Origin: Elusimicrobiota bacterium
GTDB taxonomy: Bacteria > Elusimicrobiota > Elusimicrobia > JACQPE01
NCBI GenBank assembly: GCA_016180815.1
Contig: JACPAN010000018.1
Span: forward strand, 1 to 51,075
Direction of reading: 5' to 3'
DNA: 51,075 bases
Both the position numbers and the translations under genes were made by a program. The notes under the pieces are model-generated. The model did not search any database. It had not been told where the DNA came from and was given only the letters and a program-made list of their open reading frames with translations. Shown here in pieces: positions 21,740 to 29,589 of the stretch. Within the stretch, counting starts at the first letter, position 1. Every line of letters begins with the position of its first letter.

Positions 21740-22750
21740 TTATTTGAACGCCTGATAGCCGACGGTGTTCTCATCGACAAAAATTTCCCGTCCGTCCAAG
21801 TCCGAAACCCGCACCGCGCCCGAACCCTTCATCACCCGTCCTATGGGATAGGCCTCGGGCAAAAAACGATTAACCATGCGCGCGGAGGAAGTCGAGGTAA
21901 ACAACAATTCATAATCCTCGCCCCCGTATAAAAAATAATCAACCAACGGTTTCCGGCGCATAGCCGACCACTGGCCAAGAATTTTTGGGATCGGGATTTG
22001 CCTCAAATTGACCTCAAAATCAACGCGGGAAAGCTTGGCCATCCATAATAGCGCGCAGGCTAATGAATCGGATAAATCCATGGCCGCCCGGGAGATGTTG
22101 CGCACGGATAAACGCGCGCCCTCGACCAAGCGAAGAGGAGGACGCTTATGGGCCTGGGCTAACGACGCGAACAACGCGGGCTTCTGCCCTGAATCCAAGT
22201 ATTCCAGCCCGGCTTTGGCGAGCCCGATCGGGCCTGATATCCACAGCGTTTCCCCCGGCCTGGCCTGGGACCGCAAAAGAAGACGGGCCCGTTCGGACAC
22301 CGCTAAAACAGTGACCGTGACAAACCCGCCCCCGTGTTGATGCCCATTGGAGTTCTGGGGAATTTCGGTCAAATCCCCTCCTAAAATTTTAACCCGCCAT
22401 TTTCCGGCTTCCCGGCGCAAAGCCGCCAGAAAATCGTCGAATTCCGAGGCTGGCGCCCGGCGTCCCAAGCCCATGGCCACCAGAGCCGAACAATGCTCCC
22501 CCCCGCCCATGGCCGCCACATCGCTTAAAGCCGTGCGCAGGGATTTAACCGCCAATTCCCCGGGCGACATCCACAACTTCCGGAAATGAGAATCTTCGAC
22601 CAAAGAATCCGTGCTGGCTAACAGCACCTTGCCGTCGCCTAAATCAAACCAGCCGCAATCATCGCCTAATTTAGCCTGGCGTCCCAAGGACGGCAAAATG
22701 CGCTGATGAATCAAACGGAATTCACCGATATCACTAAGTTTAGCGGCCAT
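21740..22750 (-). CDS. thiL: Thiamine-monophosphate kinase
   Basis: 336 residues from ATG at 22748-22750, where the protein begins MAAKLSDIGEFRLIHQRILP. That codon shares one base with the nnrD stop (TAATG), supporting coupling; a longer in-frame reading runs into nnrD. Motifs: KLGDDCGWFDLGDGKVLLASTD split over the N-terminal nucleotide and metal sites, SLRTALSDVAAMGG, and GGEDYELLFT in the C-terminal part. ThiL phosphorylates thiamine phosphate to the active diphosphate. This order (acpS, nnrD, thiL) is a housekeeping cluster. Confidence 0.94.
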   Translation of the reverse strand: MAAKLSDIGEFRLIHQRILPSLGRQAKLGDDCGWFDLGDGKVLLASTDSLVEDSHFRKLWMSPGELAVKSLRTALSDVAAMGGGEHCSALVAMGLGRRAPASEFDDFLAALRREAGKWRVKILGGDLTEIPQNSNGHQHGGGFVTVTVLAVSERARLLLRSQARPGETLWISGPIGLAKAGLEYLDSGQKPALFASLAQAHKRPPLRLVEGARLSVRNISRAAMDLSDSLACALLWMAKLSRVDFEVNLRQIPIPKILGQWSAMRRKPLVDYFLYGGEDYELLFTSTSSARMVNRFLPEAYPIGRVMKGSGAVRVSDLDGREIFVDENTVGYQAFK

Positions 22751-23637
22751 TAACGGTTCAATGTCTTTTTCATGGCCTCTGGGAGATGGGCCACGATGTC
22801 TTCCGCGTTCATGGACACTTCGCTTAACGCCCGGCAAGCCAAATCACCGGACAAACCGTGAAGATAAACAGCGGCCAAAACCCCCTGCAGATAATCCCCA
22901 ATGGGTACTTTACGGGCGGCCAGTTGCGCCACAAAAGCGCCCATTAATCCGGCCAACACATCGCCTGATCCGCCCTTGGCCATACCCGGATTGCCGGTCG
23001 GATTTTGCCAGGCTTGGGAACGGAAAAAAACCTTGCTTTTAAAACCCTTGAGAACCAACGCCGCGTTGGGATGATTTTTGGCGAAGGCCCGGCCCAAAGC
23101 CGGGCCCTTTTTGATCACTTCATCTTCAGGAATGCTCATCAAACGGCTGAATTCTTTTCGATGCGGGGTTAAACAACGAAACGCTTGGCCGTCCAACGGA
23201 GGCTTCACATTCAAAGCATCCGCGTCTAAAACCATGGGGATTTCCACTTCCTTGACCAAGGTCCGGATAAATTGAGTGGTTTGTTCCTGGCGGGTCAAAC
23301 CCGGGCCCACGACAATCGAAGTAACCCCGCGCTCCTTGGCATAGGTTTTAATCGTGCCTACAGCTCCCCAATCAACGGTGCCGTCCACGGTTTCCTCCAA
23401 CGGCAGAGTCAGGGCTTCGAGAATCTGGGAATAAACCAAAGCCTGAAGACTCCTCGGCGTGGCCAAAGTCACCAGGCCCGCGCCGCCGCGCAAAGCCGCC
23501 TTAGTGGTCAGCACTGCCGCGCCCAACAGGCGGCGGGACCCGGCCACGACCAGGCAATGCCCATAATCCCATTTCTGAGTCTCGGTCCGGCGCTTAGGCA
23601 GGGCTTTGCGGACAATGGCGGCGGTAACAGGCTTCAT
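22750..23637 (-). CDS. nnrD: ADP-dependent NAD(P)H-hydrate dehydratase
   Basis: 295 residues from ATG at 23635-23637, chosen because it overlaps the acpS stop as ATGA and starts MKPVTAAIVRKALPKRR; a longer reading lies inside acpS. The ribokinase-like dehydratase domain shows HCLVVAGSRRLLGAAVLTTK, the LTPHRKEFSRL stretch and the signature NPGMAKGGSGDVLAGLMGAF. It repairs hydrated NADH and NADPH. The N-terminal epimerase domain (NnrE) found fused in many bacteria is absent, so that activity must come from elsewhere. Confidence 0.93.
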   Translation of the reverse strand: MKPVTAAIVRKALPKRRTETQKWDYGHCLVVAGSRRLLGAAVLTTKAALRGGAGLVTLATPRSLQALVYSQILEALTLPLEETVDGTVDWGAVGTIKTYAKERGVTSIVVGPGLTRQEQTTQFIRTLVKEVEIPMVLDADALNVKPPLDGQAFRCLTPHRKEFSRLMSIPEDEVIKKGPALGRAFAKNHPNAALVLKGFKSKVFFRSQAWQNPTGNPGMAKGGSGDVLAGLMGAFVAQLAARKVPIGDYLQGVLAAVYLHGLSGDLACRALSEVSMNAEDIVAHLPEAMKKTLNR

Positions 23638-23990
23638 GATTCTGAATAAACCAAACAATAGGCGACCGCGTAATGATCGGAGTGAGAAAGAGTGATCGAG
23701 GCTTTCCATTTTTTTGGAAAACCTAACTTGCTCAAATCAAGGATCGGCTTGCCGTTATCCAAACGCTGGACCGTGATATCCCTCAAATTGACGCTGGGGC
23801 TGCTTAAAGCCTTCCATACGGCTTCTTTGGCCGCGAAACGCACAGCCAAACGCTCCCATTTTTTCCGGCTTTTCACGGCATAAGCCAATTCCTCTTTGCT
23901 GAAAACGCGGCTCAGGAAGCGGGGGTTTTTGCCGGCTTTTTTGATGCGTTCGATCTCGATGATATCAACGCCGGTGCCGATAATTGTCAT
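23634..23990 (-). CDS. acpS: Holo-[acyl-carrier-protein] synthase
   Basis: 118 residues, normal for AcpS. TIIGTGVDIIEIERIKKAG at the start holds the metal-binding Asp, RFAAKEAVWKAL holds the second metal and catalytic residues, and SITLSHSDHYAVAYC ends the fold. It moves the phosphopantetheine arm from CoA to acyl carrier protein for lipid synthesis. Its ATG overlaps the glmS stop by 4 bases, and its stop overlaps nnrD. Confidence 0.95.
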   Translation of the reverse strand: MTIIGTGVDIIEIERIKKAGKNPRFLSRVFSKEELAYAVKSRKKWERLAVRFAAKEAVWKALSSPSVNLRDITVQRLDNGKPILDLSKLGFPKKWKASITLSHSDHYAVAYCLVYSES

Positions 23991-26900
23991 TCAACCGTGA
24001 CGCTTTTGGCCAAATTCCTCGGCTGATCCACGTCCAATCCCTTCAAATTCGCCACATGATAAGCGAACAACTGCGCCGCGGCCACGGCCAACACAGGCTC
24101 GAAAAACTCATGCCCGGCGCCGGCCACCGCCAAATTCCGATGGCTCAATTTATCGAGACCATGATCGCCTTGGGTGATCACCGCTAAAATCCGGGCGCCG
24201 CGAGCCTTGGCCTCCTCTAAATTAGAACGGGTTTTTTCATACACCGAAGAATTCTTGGGACAGAAAGAAAACACGGGCATATCCTTGTCGATTAAGGCGA
24301 TGGGGCCGTGCTTCATTTCCCCGGCCGCGTAACCCTCGGCGTGAATGTAGGAGATTTCTTTTAATTTCAAAGCGCCTTCCAAGGCGATGGGGTACATCAT
24401 GTGCCGGCCTAAATACAAAAACCCCTTGGCTTCCTGGAATTCCCGGGCTAATTCGGCGACGGCCGGATCAAGATGGCTGATCGCGGACCTTAATTTATTG
24501 GGCAGCTCAAGAAGATCATGCGTCAATGCGCGGAATGCTTTGGCGCTTAATGTTCCCCTGACCCGTCCGAACCCCAGCGCCAATAAATATAAGGACGCTA
24601 ATTGCGCCATGAAAGCTTTGGTCGAAGCCACGCCGATTTCCGGTCCGCAACGCGTGTAAAGCGTTCCCTTGACCTGACGGGTCAATGTGGAGCCGATTTG
24701 ATTGATGATGCCCGTGGTGGCGACGCCCTTTGTTTGCGCGGCCAAACGCAACGCCGCGATGGTGTCCGCCGTTTCCCCGGATTGGCTGATGGCCACGGCC
24801 AATGTGCCGGGCTCAACGTTTCGGGAGGCATAGCGGAATTCGCTCGCGATTTCCGCACGCGCGGGCAGGCCCGCCCATTTTTCGAACAGATACTCCCCGA
24901 TCAACCCCGCATGAAAGGCCGTGCCGCAAGCCAAAAACTGAACCCGGCGCAGGGAACGGACCCGGGCTTTAGTGAGGCTGACCTCCTGAAGCAGGGAATC
25001 CAAATTTTCATCATAGGCGCGGGCGCGCAGCGTATCCTCGAACGAGCGCGGGCCCTCATGAATTTCCTTGAGCATGAAATGCTTGAACCCGCCCTTTTCC
25101 GCCATCAACGGGTCCCAGGGCACATCCTGAGGCGCGCGGCGCACCGGCGCGCCGGAAGCGGAAAAAATCTTAGGCGGCTGATGTTCCGCCAGCAAAACGA
25201 CTTCATTGTCCTCGACAAAAACGACTTTTTTGGTGAACGGAAGAAGCGCGGGGATGTCGCTAGCTAAGAACGACTCATCACGGCCTTGGCCAACGCCCAC
25301 GACCAAGGGGCAATCTTTGCGGATGCCCACGATGCGGCGCCCCCATGATTTGGACATCACCACCAGCGCATAAGCGCCGCGCAATTTTTTCAAAACCCGG
25401 CCCACGGCTTTCAAGACATCCCGGTCGGAAACGTTGACCCCTTCTTTTTTAGGCATCTCTTCCTCAAAAAGATGGGCCAGCACCTCGGTGTCCGTTTCCG
25501 AACGAAACGCATGTTTGCGTTTCAACAACTCTTCTTTAAGCTCCAGGTAATTCTCGATGATGCCGTTATGAACCAGAACCGTTTCACCCGAGCAATCCGT
25601 GTGCGGATGAGCGTTTTCTTCTGAAGGGCGGCCATGCGTCGCCCAGCGGGAGTTGTGCGACAGGATTCCGTTGGCAAAAAAATTTTCAAATTCTTCGACT
25701 TCAAGGTCGTAAACCGGTTTTCCGTTTGAAGAAATTCTTCGAACGGACACCACCTCTTGGTGGCGCACGTCAGCCGCTAAGAAACGCCTCATCCGGCCGA
25801 TCGTTTCCCGCGCCTGCGGCTCATTTTTGAACGCTTCAATGAATTTTTCAACCTGGCCATCGCTCAGGCGTCCCTCTCCGTCAAAAGGCCTCAACGCTGA
25901 TTTTTTGATTCCGGCGTCCAGCATCTTGGTTTTAATAATCGGTTTTTTAATCGGAACAGCCCAAGAAGAAAGATAAAAACCGTTGCGCTTTCCTTTAAGC
26001 GCATGATCCAACTGACGGCATTTACGATAAGACGAAAATCCGATCGCATCTCGAAATGCGACAAAGGAATCCCGGCGTGAAATCAACAAAGTCATTGATG
26101 TGCTGGGGCGACGATGGGACCTGTCCGGCTGAGATTCTCTTAACGAGGTCAAAATGCCGAAACGCAACAACCAACCCTGAATTTGCCGCACCAATTCCAA
26201 ATTAATCATGGTCAACCCGATTTGACCGGCAGACCGGGCTACGTAGCCTTCGGCATCGAATAAACCGCGCAGCAAACCTGCAAGGTGATCGCCGGGCAGG
26301 CCGCCCGCTTTCTCCATGAGTTCGCTCCGGCGCTGCGCGACATTGACGCGCATCCATTGGGCCAGGCCGAAACTGTTCATCTCCAAAAGATAGGCTTTGA
26401 CTTGCGGAATCGAGGCTATCCTGCCCCGCACATTGAAATGTTTTTGAGCCAGATTGCGATAAACTTCCAAAGTATCGCCGTCAGGGTCTTTAAAACGCAA
26501 CCCGCGCCGGCCGATATGCCCATCGCCCATCAAGTAACCGATGAATTGCATCACGCCCGGTTCCGATGATTGAGGCAGATGAACGAAACTGCCGTGGCGG
26601 CTATCCACCGGTTCGGCATCAGGCAAATTCAATCCGAGGGATTCCTTTAATTGGTTCAACAAAGGCTCGGCCACATTTCTGGATTCATCCCTGATATGTT
26701 CCATCATGGATGTGCTGACGCCGGCCATCTCCGCCACCCGCCTGCCTCCTCCATGATGCAACAAAGCCTCCTTGATGATGCCTCGCGACAGAGGACCGAG
26801 ACGGTAATATCGGGAAAGAGGAACCGGCTGAAACTTAATCGGCGCTCCCTCGCAATCCCATGACCTGGCATGGAGCAAAATGTCCCCGGGTTCAATCTCC

Positions 26901-27373
26901 TCGGCGCGTTTGGCCGTCAAATTTCCTTCGCTGTCGGTAAAAAACAAACGATGCTCGGGCGTGCAAACTAATTTGCCGAAAGGAATGCGAATTTCGATTA
27001 ATTCTTCCGGCGCCGGATGCGACCAAACTTTAGCCTGATGCGGAACGATTCTAAGGCTTTGGGGATCAAGAGCCAAAACAGTACAAACGTCGCCCAATGA
27101 ATCGGCTCTGACGGACCGCCCGTCCGCCAATTGAATCAATGTATCCGCGCTTAAACAGTGCCCCAGGGCGCATGAGCCGGCCACCGGGCGCTCGCTCAAG
27201 CGCTGCTCAAGGCCGGAAATCTTGCCGACGACGCGGACAATATCTAGTTTGCCGTTGGGAGAAAAAACGCAGATGCCCGCTGAATCATAGCCCCGGTACT
27301 CAAGACGCTTAAGACCCTCCAGAAGAATCGGGCCGGCTTGACGTTTGCCTAAATAACCGACAATGCCGCACAT
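23987..27373 (-). CDS. glmS: Glutamine-fructose-6-phosphate aminotransferase interrupted by an intein
   Basis: 1128 codons, about 500 more than a normal GlmS. Residues 1-72 begin MCGIVGYLGKRQAGPILLEG with the nucleophile Cys2. Residues 73-574 are an intein with homing endonuclease. Residue 575 onward resumes at SRWATHGRPSEENAHPH, followed by VHNGIIENYLELKEEL, two SIS domains (LACGTAFHAGLIGEY, the SQSGETADTIAALR phosphate loop) and the terminal NLAKSVTVE. After splicing the protein is 626 residues. It makes glucosamine-6-phosphate, the entry to peptidoglycan and lipid A. Splicing is required, since the insertion splits the glutamine-binding loop. It lies 7 bases past pdxJ. Confidence 0.95.
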   Translation of the reverse strand: MCGIVGYLGKRQAGPILLEGLKRLEYRGYDSAGICVFSPNGKLDIVRVVGKISGLEQRLSERPVAGSCALGHCLSADTLIQLADGRSVRADSLGDVCTVLALDPQSLRIVPHQAKVWSHPAPEELIEIRIPFGKLVCTPEHRLFFTDSEGNLTAKRAEEIEPGDILLHARSWDCEGAPIKFQPVPLSRYYRLGPLSRGIIKEALLHHGGGRRVAEMAGVSTSMMEHIRDESRNVAEPLLNQLKESLGLNLPDAEPVDSRHGSFVHLPQSSEPGVMQFIGYLMGDGHIGRRGLRFKDPDGDTLEVYRNLAQKHFNVRGRIASIPQVKAYLLEMNSFGLAQWMRVNVAQRRSELMEKAGGLPGDHLAGLLRGLFDAEGYVARSAGQIGLTMINLELVRQIQGWLLRFGILTSLRESQPDRSHRRPSTSMTLLISRRDSFVAFRDAIGFSSYRKCRQLDHALKGKRNGFYLSSWAVPIKKPIIKTKMLDAGIKKSALRPFDGEGRLSDGQVEKFIEAFKNEPQARETIGRMRRFLAADVRHQEVVSVRRISSNGKPVYDLEVEEFENFFANGILSHNSRWATHGRPSEENAHPHTDCSGETVLVHNGIIENYLELKEELLKRKHAFRSETDTEVLAHLFEEEMPKKEGVNVSDRDVLKAVGRVLKKLRGAYALVVMSKSWGRRIVGIRKDCPLVVGVGQGRDESFLASDIPALLPFTKKVVFVEDNEVVLLAEHQPPKIFSASGAPVRRAPQDVPWDPLMAEKGGFKHFMLKEIHEGPRSFEDTLRARAYDENLDSLLQEVSLTKARVRSLRRVQFLACGTAFHAGLIGEYLFEKWAGLPARAEIASEFRYASRNVEPGTLAVAISQSGETADTIAALRLAAQTKGVATTGIINQIGSTLTRQVKGTLYTRCGPEIGVASTKAFMAQLASLYLLALGFGRVRGTLSAKAFRALTHDLLELPNKLRSAISHLDPAVAELAREFQEAKGFLYLGRHMMYPIALEGALKLKEISYIHAEGYAAGEMKHGPIALIDKDMPVFSFCPKNSSVYEKTRSNLEEAKARGARILAVITQGDHGLDKLSHRNLAVAGAGHEFFEPVLAVAAAQLFAYHVANLKGLDVDQPRNLAKSVTVE
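25652..27157 (-). mobile_element. Intein with LAGLIDADG homing endonuclease in GlmS
   Basis: 502 residues between His72 and Ser575 of the precursor. Block A starts at Cys73 (CLSADTLIQLADGR). Block B is VCTPEHRLFF, with the TxxH motif. The endonuclease has two dodecapeptides, FIGYLMGDGHIG and LLRGLFDAEGYV, each with the acidic residue. Blocks F and G are VYDLEVEEFENFFA and NGILSHN, so the penultimate His, final Asn and following Ser are all present. Both splicing and DNA cleavage therefore look intact. Methanococcus jannaschii carries an intein in the same enzyme. Confidence 0.95.
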
Positions 27374-27380
27374 GCGGCCG

Positions 27381-28133
27381 TCAGGCCTCCAATGTCAGAG
27401 GATTCTCAGAGCCGGTGCGGATGGCTTCCAAGATGTCTTCCACGGCCGTGGGCAAGCCCACAAACAAGCTCCTGGCCACCAAAGCAAACCCTACGTTGAT
27501 TTGCTGCACCTCATAAACCTGAGCGACTTCAGCCACATGATCGCAGTCCAAGCCATGGCCGACATGAAGACCGAGTTCCAATTCGCGCACCAAACGTCCC
27601 GCGATATGCAGGTCCTCAAGAGCCGACTGGCGGCGGGCTTTGGAGGAGGCTTTGATATAGGTCCGGGCGTTGAGTTCGATCAAATCAGCGCCCAGGCGTT
27701 TGCCTAGACGGATATCCACGGCATTGGACTCAAGGAGAAGGCCGACTTTAACGCCTTTTTTCTTGACGCTTTCGATCGCCTTGCCCACCTCTTTTTGCAC
27801 CTCATTTTTCTGAATCTCAAAGCCTCTGGTCTCTTCGCCGGATTTTTCCGGTGAAAAAACAACGACAGCCGGAGACAATCTGGCCGCGGCCGGAACCAAA
27901 CCCGGATCAGGAGCCAAATGAAGCTGCAAAGAAAGCTTGGTTTGGCGCTTTAAATCCGCGATGTCTTTTTCCGTCAGCGGTTTTTTCTCCGGCCGCAAAT
28001 GAGCCAACAAAACATGGACGCCGGCCTTGGACAGCTCATTGGCCACGTCGGACAATTCAGGAGTGTCTTCTCCCCCCGCTTCCCTTAATTGGGCGAAATA
28101 ATCAAGGCAGACCCCGAGTTTTGCCGTAGCCAT
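27381..28133 (-). CDS. pdxJ: Divergent PdxJ-like protein (pyridoxine 5'-phosphate synthase family)
   Basis: 250 residues with a PdxJ outline: LGVCLDYFAQLREAG, LAHLRPEKKPLTEKD, LSPAVVVFSPEKS, LGADLIELNARTY, LGLHVGHGLDCDHV and a C-terminal INVGFALVARSLFVGLPTAV. Compared with the Escherichia coli enzyme, several active-site positions differ: VNIDH is VCLDY, DRRHI is EKKPL, and the Glu in NLEMA is not kept. The catalytic HLR and GHGL remain. It may be a lineage version of PdxJ or a relative with altered chemistry. It has an AAAGGAG ribosome site and a 46-base gap after glmM. Confidence 0.72.
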   Translation of the reverse strand: MATAKLGVCLDYFAQLREAGGEDTPELSDVANELSKAGVHVLLAHLRPEKKPLTEKDIADLKRQTKLSLQLHLAPDPGLVPAAARLSPAVVVFSPEKSGEETRGFEIQKNEVQKEVGKAIESVKKKGVKVGLLLESNAVDIRLGKRLGADLIELNARTYIKASSKARRQSALEDLHIAGRLVRELELGLHVGHGLDCDHVAEVAQVYEVQQINVGFALVARSLFVGLPTAVEDILEAIRTGSENPLTLEA

Positions 28134-28179
28134 AATCCGCTCCTTTTATACCGATTAGACGCTTAAAACTGAAACAACC

Positions 28180-29589
28180 CTATTCTATCGCTTTTAAGTA
28201 CGCCTGCTTTAAAGATTCGGCCATTGTTTTTAAGCCGGATAAACGCATTTCTCCTTCCAACAAAATGCGCAAGACAGGCTCTGTCCCCGAATAACGGACT
28301 AAAACGCGCCCCTTATGATCCAACGCCTTGCTCACGAGGCCCAATTCCTTGAGGAAAACCGGCAAACTTTCCAGCGGCGGCTTCTCGGCAGGGGAAGGAA
28401 CTTGAAGGCCGGCTTGAGGCATCAATGGAAACCGCGCGAATAACTTGGACGCCGGCCGCCCGGACTCAAGAAGCATTTGAACGATCATCATGGCGCCCAG
28501 ACAGCCGTCCGCGCTCGGCAACACGAACGGCCAAATAAAATGCCCGGAATTTTCCCCGCCGAATCCCAGCGCCGCCTCCTGCAGAGCTTCCAACACCCAA
28601 CGATCCCCGACCTTTGTTTCAATAACGCCGACGCCGTTTTTTTCAAGAAAATGCCTTAACGCAAAATTGGACACCTGCGTCGTCACCAACGCATCGGAGC
28701 CTTTTTCTCTCAAACGCCGCCGCTCAAGGGCCACGGTCGCCAGCACCCACTCGCCGGGCAACGCCCGGCCCCGCTCATCAACCACCACCAAACGATCGCC
28801 GTCTCCGTCCAAAGCGAAGCCGATATCCGCCCGTTTTTTGAGCACCATACTCGCTAATCGTTGAGGGTGCAACGCCCCGCAATCAACATTGATATTGCGG
28901 CCGTTCGGCTGAACCCCCAAGACATGGACCACGGCGCCTAATTCCCGAAGAAGATCAGGCAAAACTTGCGCGGCCGCGCCATGAGCCGCGTCCACGACCA
29001 CGGTCAACCCGCGAAAATCAAGATACGCGGCCAAGCGGGACTTTAAAAAATCCATATAGCGGCGCCGGGCCCAATCAGGACGCAAGGCGCCGGACAACAG
29101 GCTGGAGCCCGGCGGCGCGCGGCGTTTGCGCGCCGGCGAAGCGCGGCGTTTAAGGGCGCCGCCGAGCAATTGTTTTTCGATATCGCGCTCCCAATCCTCT
29201 GGGATTTTCTGGCCTCTGGGGCCGAAAAATTTAAGGCCGTTGTATTCAGGCGGATTGTGACTGGCGGAAATGACGCAACCCAGCGCCGCGTTTAATCCGG
29301 CCACAAGATAAGCGATGGCCGGAGTCGGCAAAATCCCCAAATCATGGGGGATAAACCCGGCTTCTTGAAAACTGCGAGCCACAAGGCCGTTGAGAACCCG
29401 GCCGCTGGCTCGCGTATCCCGGGCAATCACCAGCATGCGCTCCCTTGACGGCGGGAGAACCGACGGCCGCCGGTCGAGAAGTCCGCTGAAGGCCGGGCCT
29501 AAACGGACTAAAACATCGTTGATTAAAGGAAATTGGCCGGGACGGCCGCGGATGCCGTCCGTGCCGAAAATGCTCAGGGTGTCGGCCAT
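28180..29589 (-). CDS. glmM: Phosphoglucosamine mutase
   Basis: 469 residues. LSIFGTDGIRGRPGQFPLIN opens the protein; the phosphoserine loop is CVISASHNPPEYNGLKFFGP (Ser110); the metal loop is LDGDGDRLVVVD; sugar binding is GFGGENSGHFIW; and the phosphate loop is VRYSGTEPVLRILLEGE. It converts glucosamine-6-phosphate to glucosamine-1-phosphate, the step after GlmS. About 16 residues rich in Arg and Lys at 146-162 (KRRASPARKRRAPPGS) are an uncommon insert. The glmM, cdaA pairing is conserved widely and can link cell-wall precursor supply to cyclic-di-AMP. Confidence 0.95.
   Translation of the reverse strand: MADTLSIFGTDGIRGRPGQFPLINDVLVRLGPAFSGLLDRRPSVLPPSRERMLVIARDTRASGRVLNGLVARSFQEAGFIPHDLGILPTPAIAYLVAGLNAALGCVISASHNPPEYNGLKFFGPRGQKIPEDWERDIEKQLLGGALKRRASPARKRRAPPGSSLLSGALRPDWARRRYMDFLKSRLAAYLDFRGLTVVVDAAHGAAAQVLPDLLRELGAVVHVLGVQPNGRNINVDCGALHPQRLASMVLKKRADIGFALDGDGDRLVVVDERGRALPGEWVLATVALERRRLREKGSDALVTTQVSNFALRHFLEKNGVGVIETKVGDRWVLEALQEAALGFGGENSGHFIWPFVLPSADGCLGAMMIVQMLLESGRPASKLFARFPLMPQAGLQVPSPAEKPPLESLPVFLKELGLVSKALDHKGRVLVRYSGTEPVLRILLEGEMRLSGLKTMAESLKQAYLKAIE

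Follow-up and report, generated by a model that had tools for sequence, protein, structure and literature searches.

The closest described relative of the element reported here is the intein of Methanocaldococcus jannaschii GlmS (Mja GF-6P), which a first-pass annotation of the locus had named as residing in the same enzyme. This proved correct: in a Methanocaldococcus genome with a 1,664,970-bp chromosome (G358), which we take to be M. jannaschii, glmS is interrupted by a 499-aa intein at GH/C...HN/SRWATHG (slashes mark the ends of the intein). Comparison with our locus places both inteins at the identical point of the same host protein, with lengths of 499 and 502 aa, although the M. jannaschii host is euryarchaeal. 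The inteins of its congeners (L017, L023, and L056) belong to a different clade of the intein tree from ours, and the one that was aligned with ours (L017) lacks the helix-turn-helix segment described below, while otherwise aligning throughout at 31% identity. More distant relatives, such as TliVMA (PDB ID: 7qss) and PI-PfuI (PDB ID: 1dq3), likewise consist of a Hint domain with a nested LAGLIDADG endonuclease, but occupy other host proteins and insertion sites and share 17-18% identity with our intein. Both TliVMA and PI-TkoII are known to have accessory domains of the helix-turn-helix kind (PMC8966425), so this part of the architecture is not new.

The intein analyzed here lies in a stretch of 51,075 nucleotides from an Elusimicrobiota assembly (contig JACPAN010000018.1, hereafter the window). 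The minus strand at positions 21740-29589 carries the gene order glmM-pdxJ-glmS-nnrD-like-thiL, and the features of the interrupted gene are as follows.

23987..27373, minus strand: glmS precursor open reading frame, intein-interrupted, 1128 aa (open reading frame, domain matches; the sole glmS of the genome)
27158..27373, minus strand: N-extein, GlmS residues 1-72 (MCGIVG...CALGH), with catalytic Cys2 (TIGR01135, alignment to E. coli GlmS)
25652..27157, minus strand: intein, 502 aa, Cys1 to His501-Asn502 (profile matches, alignment, AlphaFold2 model, PDB fold matches)
26864..27157, minus strand: Hint N-terminal half, with the Cys1 nucleophile and block B CTPEH (Thr66, His69) (Cys1 and His69 invariant; model)
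26633..26797, minus strand: helical accessory domain of the Cro/C1 helix-turn-helix type, intein residues 121-175 (modelled as four helices)
25988..26572, minus strand: LAGLIDADG homing endonuclease core, intein residues 196-390 (Pfam, alignment, fold matches)
26513-26548, minus strand: first dodecapeptide, QFIGYLMGDGHI, with the putative catalytic Asp212 kept
26246-26281, minus strand: second dodecapeptide, AGLLRGLFDAEG, with the putative catalytic Asp301 kept
25772..25960, minus strand: second helical module, C-terminal to the endonuclease core, intein residues 400-462 (model shows helices at 405-460)
25652..25771, minus strand: Hint C-terminal half, with block F (Asp484) and block G (His501-Asn502) (TIGR01443; Asp484, His501, and Asn502 invariant)
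23990..25651, minus strand: C-extein, SRWATHG...SVTVE (domain matches, TIGR01135, alignment to E. coli GlmS)

The region 23987-27373 is a single uninterrupted frame of 1128 residues, in which homology to GlmS is confined to residues 1-72 and 575-1128, with 502 residues between. The in-frame insertion at 25652-27157 claimed in the first-pass annotation is exact to the nucleotide (Cys73 starts at 27157 and Asn574 ends at 25652), and its removal does rebuild a continuous enzyme: the resulting protein of 626 aa (68.5 kDa) matches the TIGR01135 glmS model in a single stretch over its whole length (1-607 of 607, 759 bits) and is gap-free across the junction when aligned to E. coli GlmS. The N-extein supplies the catalytic Cys2, which becomes Cys1 once Met is removed, and the C-extein supplies the splicing acceptor Ser+1, the remainder of the glutaminase domain, and two SIS domains. 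In GlmS, glutamine is bound and closed over by an Arg-Trp (RWATHG) loop, and it is this loop that the intein interrupts, as had been claimed. Splicing is required before glutamine-dependent activity, because the precursor splits the loop from its domain. The genome (39 contigs, 99.5% complete) encodes only one glmS; thus, if GlmS is needed, the intein must splice.

The inserted protein (56.3 kDa) is recognized by profiles of both its functions. The Pfam family Intein_splicing (PF14890) matches the open reading frame with an E-value of 3.6e-18 (66 bits, cut-off 35.8), and LAGLIDADG_3 (PF14528) matches it with 4.4e-19 (8.7e-20 on the intein alone). The NCBIfam intein_Nterm match begins at residue 73, and intein_Cterm (TIGR01443) matches at 553-575. 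Among 26 aligned homologous inteins, which share 26-61% identity with the window intein and are homologous along their length, the invariant columns include Cys1, His69, Asp484, His501, Asn502, and Asp301 of the second endonuclease motif, while the first motif keeps its Asp212 in the window intein and its nearest relatives. The splicing signature is complete (Cys1, Thr66-x-x-His69, His501-Asn502, and Ser+1). An AlphaFold2 model built from the 26-sequence alignment (pLDDT 93, pTM 0.90) finds bifunctional inteins as its top PDB matches (TliVMA, 7qss, E = 2e-22; PI-PfuI, 1dq3; PI-TkoII, 2cw7; and PI-SceI), and its fold matches also include the LAGLIDADG endonuclease I-DmoI; the PF14890 match and the likeness to solved inteins agree on a Hint fold. 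The accessory segment is matched by each of Pfam HTH_3 and HTH_31 in 8 of the 26 homologous inteins, with no Pfam HTH match to the window intein's own domain. The second helical module probably contacts DNA. The claim that this bacterial GlmS contains a full-length intein, homing endonuclease included, is thus upheld by the profile matches, the invariant splicing residues, and both dodecapeptides with their Asp residues; the element is very probably a canonical bifunctional intein of class 1 that parasitizes glmS by homing.

Inteins at this site are widespread. A degenerate junction pattern, HN[STC]RWATHG, which requires His-Asn, was scanned in public genomes and retrieved at least 42 loci in which the end of an intein is followed by SRWATHG; this number is a lower bound, as most of the Methanocaldococcus carriers found later fit the pattern yet are absent from the scan output. 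By record title, 23 of these loci are archaeal, 16 fall in five bacterial phyla (Omnitrophota 9, Patescibacteria 3, Chloroflexota 2, Abditibacteriota 1, and Elusimicrobiota 1), and three are labelled only 'bacterium'. One of the latter (L040), placed with Nitrososphaerota in both trees, is probably mislabelled. In the genus Methanocaldococcus, glmS is interrupted in 10 of the 13 genes recovered. Among Elusimicrobiota, a GlmS intein was found in two of 341 genomes, that of the window and G003 (locus L038, the Elusimicrobiota record in the scan), which is the other carrier in the window's family and has an insert of 61% identity at the same codon. The glmS gene is uninterrupted in two members of the same family (G001 and G002) and in the other members of the class examined, which rules out the insert being an ordinary domain of GlmS. 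The intein was also searched against plasmid records, with no match, and against phage records, where a single remote match (23%) in a phage terminase gives no indication of carriage by phages; viral contigs, searched by protein and by junction pattern, yielded none. The GlmS site is therefore a shared homing site rather than a new one, given the identical M. jannaschii site and the 42 public carrier loci. The first-pass suggestion that a bacterial GlmS intein at this site may be undescribed holds in part: no paper describing one was found in the literature searched, which was open-access only and so makes this absence weak evidence, but the sequences themselves are public and span at least five bacterial phyla.

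Other inteins were seen in these genomes. The window's own genome carries a second one (L140, G000:C2 near 54157) in a B12-dependent ribonucleotide reductase, with the junctions NPC/FAGD ... AGN/CGEK and Gly in place of His before the terminal Asn. The sister genome G002, free of the GlmS intein, encodes an intein-like Hint domain (L134, G002:C59:584-1780; VEG/C ... HN/T) inside a repetitive structural protein, which may be a bacterial intein-like element. Elsewhere in the class, a gyrase-like protein frame contains one intein internally, together with the end of a different element (L011, G035), and a DnaE-type DNA polymerase contains an intein (L012, G011).

A further question is the stage of the homing cycle at which the window intein stands. 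Mini-inteins of 144-247 aa occupy the same GlmS site in L048, L019, L035, and L042, with most of the endonuclease lost in L019 and L048, while L017, L030, L039, and L055 have lost the first catalytic Asp; the mini and Asp-less forms show endonuclease decay at one site, as the homing cycle predicts. With such relatives, it is possible, though we doubt it, that the window copy too has reached the stage of fixation and decay, with splicing still working and the endonuclease already dead. The distribution by itself fits a recently active and a decaying endonuclease alike. Against decay, both dodecapeptides and both Asp residues are intact in the window intein, in L038, and in the Omnitrophota relative L018, and the model covers the entire endonuclease domain of the window copy at high confidence. 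The window intein is real and intact, and constitutes a bacterial addition to the known GlmS-site inteins.

The history of the intein differs from that of its host protein. In the intein tree, the window intein, L038, and L018 (Omnitrophota, JACQRD010000084) are joined with a support of 100/100; L018 is the nearest relative outside the phylum, with 51% identity over the full length at the same site. In the GlmS tree, the window GlmS falls in its own family (100/100) inside Elusimicrobiota, whereas L018 GlmS groups with Omnitrophota and is not related to the window GlmS as their inteins are. The AU test rejects (p = 1.1e-6) a topology in which the three GlmS proteins are kept together, and the ratio of intein to extein distance is 0.62 for the window and L018, compared with 1.80 for the window and L038 and a median of 1.32. 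Because the three inteins are sisters and their GlmS proteins are not, the intein must have crossed between Elusimicrobiota and Omnitrophota, in one direction or the other, the Omnitrophota side of this transfer being a single lineage (L018). The GlmS tree is poorly supported inside the window's family, and the window and L038 either inherited their inteins from a shared ancestor, G001 and G002 having lost theirs, or acquired them separately. Two other Omnitrophota inteins (L029 and L050) group with those of Methanocaldococcus at 100/100, and this placement in the tree suggests a further transfer, between domains.

The residue following the intein is uniform among carriers. Ser was found at +1 in all 42 scan loci, although the pattern allowed Thr and Cys, and also in all eight interrupted Methanocaldococcus genes read (among them L131, the gene of the intein L056). 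Empty sites in Elusimicrobiota mostly contain Thr; Ser is present in six of 197 genomes of good completeness, which belong to two families only: the window's own, where both empty members (G001 and G002) have Ser, and f13, which has Ser and no intein. Ser can thus predate invasion, and its presence in the empty sister genomes was rejected as proof of a past intein loss. The Ser of the window's family fits either co-conversion of the neighbouring codon during homing, the sisters having lost the intein afterwards, or a Ser already in place that made invasion easier. Among intein-free Methanocaldococcus GlmS proteins, L133 reads GHSRWATHG and L132 reads GHTRWGTHG, so that Ser occurs at an empty archaeal site as well.

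A very probable course of events can be drawn from these features. Translation would yield the 1128-aa, 125-kDa precursor, in which the RWATHG loop is apart from its domain and glutamine should not be bound. Cys1 would then attack the preceding His-Cys peptide bond, the N-extein would be passed to Ser+1 of the C-extein, and Asn502 would cyclize with the assistance of His501, ligating the flanks as ...GH-SRWATHG... into the 626-aa GlmS. The nested LAGLIDADG endonuclease is predicted to cleave the insertion site of intein-free glmS genes, probably with guidance from the helical accessory domains; repair of the cut gene would then copy the intein in, along with the flanking Ser codon. The presence of the intein in Elusimicrobiota is very probably the outcome of sporadic inheritance or acquisition following a transfer between phyla. 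We infer that splicing and DNA cutting do occur, that the Ser codon is co-converted, and that splicing is ordinary and unregulated.

It had also been suggested that GlmS activity waits on splicing, which could couple it to a cell condition. On this reading, the intein would be a post-translational switch that delays GlmS maturation, and with it the supply of cell-wall precursors, until redox, temperature, or metal allows splicing. Its position in the glutamine-binding loop should leave unspliced GlmS glutaminase-dead, and Cys65, beside the block B Thr and common (not invariant) among the homologues, could in principle pair with Cys1. Such a switch is nevertheless improbable: two sister genera have the same enzyme with no intein, the intein is not co-inherited with its host protein, the extein Cys at -5 is absent from L038, no accompanying regulator was seen, and the endonuclease is kept and looks intact. 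A selfish element explains the intein-free sisters, the discordant inheritance, and the kept endonuclease with no need of a regulatory role, and the suggested coupling was not sustained. Slightly less probable still is that this lineage has turned the intein into a true regulator, whose condition-dependent splicing at the glutamine loop controls entry into the synthesis of amino sugars and peptidoglycan precursors at its first step. The chance that the locus is a contig artefact, or a foreign contig in the bin, is negligible in spite of the 39-contig assembly, and an assembly artefact was rejected: the window extein groups with its own family at 100/100, the order glmM-pdxJ-glmS recurs in the independent assembly G003 with its own divergent intein (61% identical, at the same codon), and 42 public loci have the same junction.

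The GlmS homing site is used across both prokaryotic domains, and the M. jannaschii intein is no longer an isolated archaeal curiosity. Its carriers are mainly uncultured groups (Omnitrophota, Patescibacteria, Elusimicrobiota, Micrarchaeota, and Nitrososphaerota). The use of one GlmS site in two domains and the cross-phylum transfer, neither of which was found in the open-access literature searched, should be useful to specialists. Full, endonuclease-decayed, and mini forms, together with empty alleles, are all available at a single site, a set well suited to testing the homing cycle, transfer between phyla, and the reason for the constant Ser+1, and the new natural splicing domains are useful for protein engineering. 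For the hosts that carry the intein, the maturation of GlmS depends on splicing.
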